Assembly: GCF_001889305.1 (NCBI RefSeq)
Contig: NZ_CP013074.1
Location: forward strand, 1,178,001 to 1,242,000
Source of the DNA: Dehalococcoides mccartyi
Lineage (GTDB): Bacteria > Chloroflexota > Dehalococcoidia > Dehalococcoidales > Dehalococcoidaceae
Length of the DNA: 64,000 nucleotides
Direction: 5' to 3'
The notes under the pieces are model-generated. The model was not told where the DNA came from. It did not search any database and saw nothing but the letters and a program-made list of their open reading frames with translations. The position numbers were made by a program, and so were the translations under genes. This document shows, piece by piece, positions 44,388 through 44,635 of this stretch; the stretch's first letter is position 1; the number at the start of each line of letters is the position of its first letter.

Positions 44388-44600
44388 AAAACAAAAAAGA
44401 GGCCTTCAAACCTCTTAAAAAATAAGCTGGTCCTGCCGCTAGCCCGATTACGCTCAGGGCTCCGCCCACGGGAGGGGACCTGGATGATAATTAAGCCGCT
44501 CGGCGCCTCAACCGACAGCACCCTGATTTCCCCCGGCAGGACCAACAATGTCTATCAACTTTTTAATCTTCAGGAAGTTTAGCCTAACCTGAACTGGTGA
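44388..44600 (-). ncRNA. Candidate structured non-coding RNA (class unidentified)
   Basis: On the minus strand an RNA of about 210 nt is bounded by a promoter (44607-44635) and a terminator (AAGAGG/CCTCTT then T6GT4, 44388-44416). An 11-bp GC-rich helix (44534-44544 with 44428-44438) closes a multibranch core. Inside are GGGGA/TCCCC enclosing a GCTGTCGG/CCGAGCGGC hairpin, CTCC/GGAG, and AGCCC/GGGCT. No open reading frame fits within it. It lacks the SRP-RNA, RNase P and tmRNA core motifs; the closed rod with a bubble is vaguely 6S-like. The class is unknown to me. Confidence 0.6.
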
Positions 44601-44606
44601 TGCTAA

Positions 44607-44635
44607 ATTATGACAGAATTATTCTGTTTTGGCAA
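44607..44635 (-). promoter_or_regulatory. Promoter of the ncRNA with palindromic spacer
   Basis: TTGCCA and CATAAT are separated by 17 bp on the minus strand. The spacer contains the perfect inverted repeat ACAGAATTATTCTGT (7-bp arms), a possible operator. Confidence 0.6.

Follow-up and report, generated by a model that had tools for sequence, protein, structure and literature searches.

A candidate new class of structured regulatory RNA in Dehalococcoidales with a predicted free-standing copy in Dehalococcoides

The window, a stretch of 64,000 nucleotides from Dehalococcoides mccartyi, carries on its minus strand a unit that the initial annotation had described as a free-standing gene for a structured RNA of no assigned class. 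We asked what kind of RNA such a gene would produce, and whether related genomes carry the same RNA and in which position relative to their genes. The coordinates of all features are collected in Table 1.

The transcription unit in the window

Comparison of the locus among three Dehalococcoides genomes (G000, which holds the window, G001 and G002) revealed that the promoter TTGCCA-17-CATAAT and the terminator following after about 210 nt, both named in the initial annotation, are present where it had placed them and are kept in all three genomes, with identical hexamers and spacing, a similar terminator with a compensatory-type change in the hairpin of G001, and no ORF. Transcription is predicted to start about 7 nt past the -10 element and to end in the U-run. 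The sequences further 3' of the unit are non-homologous among the three genomes.

The nucleotide sequences of the core were 100% identical in G000 and G002, with flanks at 67-68%, and 97% identical in G000 and G001, while the 100 nt on each side of the core showed 60-79% identity in the comparisons among the three genomes. Homologous stretches measured 122-139 nt, and since their length differences are not divisible by three, no protein frame is conserved across them, in agreement with the earlier view that no plausible ORF fits the region. Since the core remained unchanged while the flanks diverged, the window copy has been selected as an RNA that lacks a cis target. Judged from its predicted promoter and terminator, the absence of an ORF and its conservation, it is an intrinsically terminated free-standing ncRNA gene, and the initial description was right for this locus.

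The palindrome ACAGAATTATTCTGT that fills the promoter spacer had been read as a hint of regulated expression. The repeat itself is present, but since it is degenerate in G002 and intact in just two of the three genomes, regulation through it is not established. A single exact copy occurs in the genome; with two mismatches allowed, 11 more sites were found compared to 1 for the reversed control pattern, and a family of regulator sites is therefore possible.

Table 1. Features of the RNA unit in the window, and RNA copies on viral contigs
Feature	Position	Strand	Basis
-35 element TTGCCA	44630-44635	minus	read from sequence; kept in 3/3 Dehalococcoides genomes
-10 element CATAAT, spacer 17 bp	44607-44612	minus	read from sequence; kept in 3/3 Dehalococcoides genomes
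Palindrome ACAGAATTATTCTGT, 15 nt, candidate operator	44613-44627	none	in G000 and G001, degenerate in G002
Predicted transcript, ~210 nt	~44600-44390	minus	ends inferred from promoter and terminator positions
Intrinsic terminator	hairpin 44397-44416, U-run ~44393-44398	minus	kept in 3/3 Dehalococcoides genomes
Conserved RNA domain	44420-44548	minus	covariance model R2 match, 116.4 bits; alignments A2, A4
Structured core, fold of ~120 nt	44544-44428	minus	
P1 5' strand, 11 bp	44534-44544	minus	two-sided changes in 11/11 pairs
P1 3' strand	44428-44438	minus	pair counts, 94 copies
Arm A 5' strand GGGG	44530-44533	minus	98.3% of cells paired
Arm A 3' strand CCCC	44474-44477	minus	pair counts, 94 copies
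Kissing pseudoknot 5' strand UCAGGG	44521-44526	minus	99.2% of cells paired; two-sided changes in 5/6 pairs
Kissing pseudoknot 3' strand CCCUGA	44454-44459	minus	pair counts and unsupervised prediction
P3 5' strand GCUG	44516-44519	minus	two-sided changes in 4/4 pairs
P3 3' strand CGGC	44495-44498	minus	pair counts, 94 copies
Highly conserved unpaired strand UUAAUU (UUAAAU in most copies)	44489-44494	minus	alignments A1-A4
Arm C 5' strand CCCG	44469-44472	minus	100% of cells paired
Arm C 3' strand CGGG	44443-44446	minus	pair counts, 94 copies
Arm C inner pairs, 5' side GC	44464-44465	minus	two-sided changes in 2/2 pairs
Arm C inner pairs, 3' side GC	44452-44453	minus	pair counts, 94 copies
Internal-loop sequence GUAAU, nearly invariant	44447-44451	minus	invariant in alignment A1
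RNA copy on viral contig L182	1728-1856		
RNA copy on viral contig L183	5352-5481		
RNA copy on candidate viral contig L199	5795-5914		

The conserved fold and its support

Thermodynamic folding of the window copy gave -80 kcal/mol (z = -2.24), and 1 of 200 shuffled sequences was as stable. Since folding of the single sequence was just modestly unusual, we turned to its homologues, and the comparison between genomes was decisive. In the fold so obtained, P1 closes a junction of arm A and arm C, and a 6-bp kissing pseudoknot locks the two arms together; arm A bears the optional hairpin P3 and arm C bears the GUAAU internal loop. The unpaired strings GGGGAAA, UUAAAU, CCUCCCGUG and GUAAU are common to the extracted copies while the helices vary, and the kissing sequence also varies among copies (CCAGGG/CCCUGG, CUGAGG/CCUCAG, CCAAGG/CCUUGG and others). 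Short versions of the RNA that lack the P3 hairpin were found at L113, L115 and L118 and are usable as a minimal core.

Analysis of 20 diverse copies showed 98.0% of cells paired and a covariation score of 0.400, compared to 0.189 for shuffled and at most 0.091 for slid partners. The set was extended to 94 copies, taking in the Dehalogenimonas copies that had been left out when the fold was defined, and 95.6% of the cells in the named pairs were standard pairs, with a covariation score of 0.428 (0.187 shuffled, at most 0.126 slid). Two-sided changes occurred in 27 of the 31 pairs; compensatory changes among homologues, which the initial annotation had suggested as a check, were thus found, and its 11-bp closing helix was confirmed at every pair. 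Alignment A4 was fitted with a model of the nested helices, from which the pseudoknot is absent, so that the support for the pseudoknot is independent of the fitting; by these pair counts it is among the best-supported helices. RNAalifold alone returned a mixed fold in which the pseudoknot was drawn as a normal helix, and the named structures were counted instead. Many pairs are G-U on the modelled strand and would be C-A on the opposite one, which agrees with the minus strand as the RNA. The covarying pairs describe a conserved, aptamer-like fold of the kind found in riboswitches. The earlier reading had therefore recognised a true structure and missed its pseudoknot, and the leader form of the RNA in relatives lay beyond its view.

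Distribution and gene context in relatives

Matches to the RNA were recovered by DNA search in 20 of 61 related genomes, with up to four copies in genomes other than G000. A first covariance model located it in 30 of 393 Dehalococcoidia genomes, and a second, broader model in 65 of 156 Dehalococcoidales genomes and 43 of 85 genera, at up to 16 copies per genome. In a sample of Chloroflexota the RNA was found in Dehalococcoidia alone, apart from one weak match (G621) in which the core proved absent on reading. When 84,980 species genomes were scanned with a pattern, 38 stretches were returned, and those confirmed by the model were from Dehalococcoidia except for three MAG contigs labelled Aenigmatarchaeota, Kiritimatiellae and Syntrophaceae, which are probably misbinned. 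The covariance model did not bear out the pattern matches in Ruminococcus, Selenomonadaceae and Chlamydiales, and across the phylum sample and the pattern scan there was no clear case of the RNA outside Dehalococcoidia.

A few temperate phages have the RNA as well: it is present on two viral contigs that encode an integrase or terminase, a RecT-like protein and a helicase loader, and probably on a third. On L182 it lies within an apparent replication operon, 14 nt past the RecT-like gene and 16 nt ahead of the next gene, of phrog_2045. The collections of phage and plasmid records contained no match.

Among ORFs of at least 150 aa, the nearest one downstream was co-directional with the RNA in 85 of 98 cases and the nearest one upstream in 60 of 91, counted over copies that are not all independent. 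In Dehalococcoidales as a whole the majority of copies are cis leaders, located 5' of an operon or between cistrons, and the free-standing Dehalococcoides copy is an unusual form; the 5'-leader location typical of riboswitches is thus found in the relatives but not at the window copy. The downstream genes code for transporters, Mo-hydroxylases, modABC and TRAP systems, and operons of B12-dependent ribonucleotide reductase and reductive dehalogenase. The 73 distinct first genes included 11 AdoCbl-dependent ribonucleotide reductases, 11 family-5 solute-binding proteins, 8 radical SAM proteins, 8 [2Fe-2S] subunits of Mo-hydroxylase type, 7 ABC permeases, 4 DctP, 3 B12-binding proteins and 2 reductive dehalogenases. 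In Dehalogenimonas the order is either RNA, class II RNR, DUF2795 and RdhA, or RNA, radical SAM and B12 radical SAM. Genes for B12-dependent RNR and DUF2795 were seen repeatedly inside reductive dehalogenase operons of Dehalogenimonas type (L064, L065, L067, L068 and L100), in several copies per genome.

Tandem copies, two or three in a row, precede peptide-type ABC transporter genes at L151 2193-2707 (three copies), L124 8247-8693 and L063 522-811, and recent operon duplications at L064 and L065 carry the RNA along. Multiple copies and their spread by duplication would be expected of an extragenic repeat or mobile element with an incidental or DNA-level structure, but the strong strand bias relative to genes and the G-U pairs confined to one strand argue otherwise, as do the 76% identity of the two copies in G000 and the fact that no common flanks or terminal repeats were noticed; we regard such an element as highly improbable.

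Each Dehalococcoides genome has two copies of the RNA. About 12 nt beyond the second one in G000 (C1:1055393-1055518 in the DNA search and C1:1055399-1055525 as L022 and L082 4900-5026) there is a small ORF, some 26-28 codons long and conserved in all three genomes, for a hydrophobic peptide resembling MS-S/G/A-LGLWLILIALILSIGN. Since the window copy is free-standing and the second copy precedes a small ORF, the genus has one copy of each style.

Some Dehalogenimonas copies are intercistronic, 16-30 nt from both adjoining cistrons. Such exact positions, together with the complex pseudoknotted fold and the occurrence in phages, could fit a self-cleaving ribozyme or an mRNA-processing element that separates cistrons. 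We consider this improbable, since no Rfam ribozyme was matched, the site before a co-directional gene is strongly preferred and a terminated free-standing copy is an odd location for a ribozyme.

Downstream of the RNA, terminator-like hairpins were not in excess (11 of 78, compared to 9.8 in shuffled sequences), and transcription attenuation was rejected as a general mode. The absence of an excess is also at odds with an RNA of the put or EAR kind, which would cause processive antitermination by modifying RNA polymerase in long operons. Long operons and phage early genes do carry the present RNA, but an antitermination RNA should read through the conserved terminator directly behind the window copy, and we hold this explanation to be very unlikely. 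In the 110 nt after P1 a Shine-Dalgarno sequence with a start codon was enriched (29, 21 and 19 compared to 8.7, 7.8 and 9.0 in shuffled sequences), an enrichment expected ahead of any gene, and it sometimes opens a very short ORF directly behind P1 (L123, L161 and L166). The start codon lay anywhere between about 10 and several hundred nt from P1, and no uniform expression platform was seen. The enrichment of starts and the lack of a terminator excess favour translational control, without proving it.

Relation to known RNA classes and possible functions

Searches of Rfam with cmscan at gathering and relaxed thresholds, covering the window and ten homologue loci, returned nothing credible, and models of SRP, RNase P and tmRNA, whose core motifs the initial annotation had already judged absent, were likewise unmatched. 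Its suggestion of a 6S-like RNA did not hold. The RNA resembles 6S RNA (RF00013) in being free-standing at a similar length, about 210 nt, with promoter and terminator, and the Rfam 6S model found no match in six genomes (G000, G001, G002, G003, G008 and G011) while control genomes were matched, which would leave room for a lineage-specific 6S. However, single genomes hold as many as 16 copies of the RNA, the majority of them as leaders of other genes, and its fold is a multi-branched junction with a kissing pseudoknot rather than one long rod with a central bubble, so that a 6S RNA is extremely unlikely.

Purine and cobalamin riboswitches combine a closing stem, a junction, kissing loops, invariant loop bases, a 5'-leader position and tandem copies, and the RNA described here shares all of these. 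It differs from these loop-loop pseudoknot riboswitches in having no Rfam match, heterogeneous targets and, in one genus, a free-standing terminated copy. The cobalamin riboswitch model (RF00174) did not match at the RNA copies and identified true ones elsewhere in the same genomes. A cobalamin ligand, prompted by the B12-dependent RNR, RdhA, B12 radical SAM and corrinoid protein targets, was rejected because it leaves molybdenum hydroxylases, modABC and TRAP unexplained and because normal cobalamin riboswitches are present in these genomes; a molybdenum cofactor ligand leaves the dehalogenase and transporter targets unexplained.

In RNAs of the ANTAR-target or EutX-Rli55 type, one module occurs both in leaders and in a free-standing RNA able to sequester a regulator. 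That dual occurrence is shared with the present RNA, and the folds are unrelated. A protein-binding leader element of ANTAR-target or CsrA type, in which a lineage-specific protein binds the fold in many mRNAs and the free-standing copy serves as a sponge, would suit the very diverse targets better than one metabolite does, and the conserved loop bases and the conserved free-standing copy also speak for it; a compact conserved core with tandem copies suits an aptamer too, and we regard the protein-binding element as rather unlikely.

The sole published lead in the open-licence literature was the rdhA motif WRC-34-1, a structured RNA candidate whose 18 representatives are mostly from Dehalococcoides and lie immediately upstream of rdhA (Narunsky et al. 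2024, PMC11109978). Copies of the present RNA also precede rdhA operons, in Dehalogenimonas. In contrast to that description, the present copies in Dehalococcoides do not precede rdhA, and the range of targets is much broader; overlap or identity with this motif, or overlap with other candidates of that survey, is possible. The strong covariation and the lack of an Rfam family support the reading of the RNA as a member of a new structured regulatory class in Dehalococcoidales, as the initial annotation had allowed.

On balance we lean towards a riboswitch-like RNA that controls translation in response to a global signal, with the window copy as its free-standing, trans-acting version. The leader copies would act as a receptor reporting a widely relevant signal of the cell, and the receptor would then change translation of the next cistron. 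This translational receptor is suggested by the starts close behind P1, the terminators that are not enriched, the copies lying 15-30 nt from the cistrons on both sides and the tandem copies. Against it, no single pathway unites the downstream genes, and targets so mixed are unusual for a metabolite riboswitch. The window copy may act in trans as a stand-alone RNA, for instance by drawing away, as a decoy, whatever binds to the leader copies, as suggested by its having no cis target and yet keeping its promoter, an unchanged core and its terminator. It may be a mere remnant, but its conservation argues against this. More tentatively, the RNA could be a new riboswitch class through which a global signal sets the translation of energy-substrate modules in Dehalococcoidales and some phages, namely organohalide respiration in Dehalogenimonas and transporters and molybdenum hydroxylases elsewhere, and of which Dehalococcoides evolved a free-standing trans version.

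Dehalococcoides and Dehalogenimonas detoxify chlorinated solvents, and the control of their catabolic operons is poorly understood. With covariation this strong, the RNA merits direct probing for a ligand or protein partner. If the favoured interpretation is true, the occurrence of one fold in phages and ahead of operons for rdhA-type proteins, transporters and molybdenum enzymes would represent a shared layer of control, and the retention of a conserved receptor-like RNA as a transcript of its own would mark an unusual way for a cis regulator to become a trans RNA.
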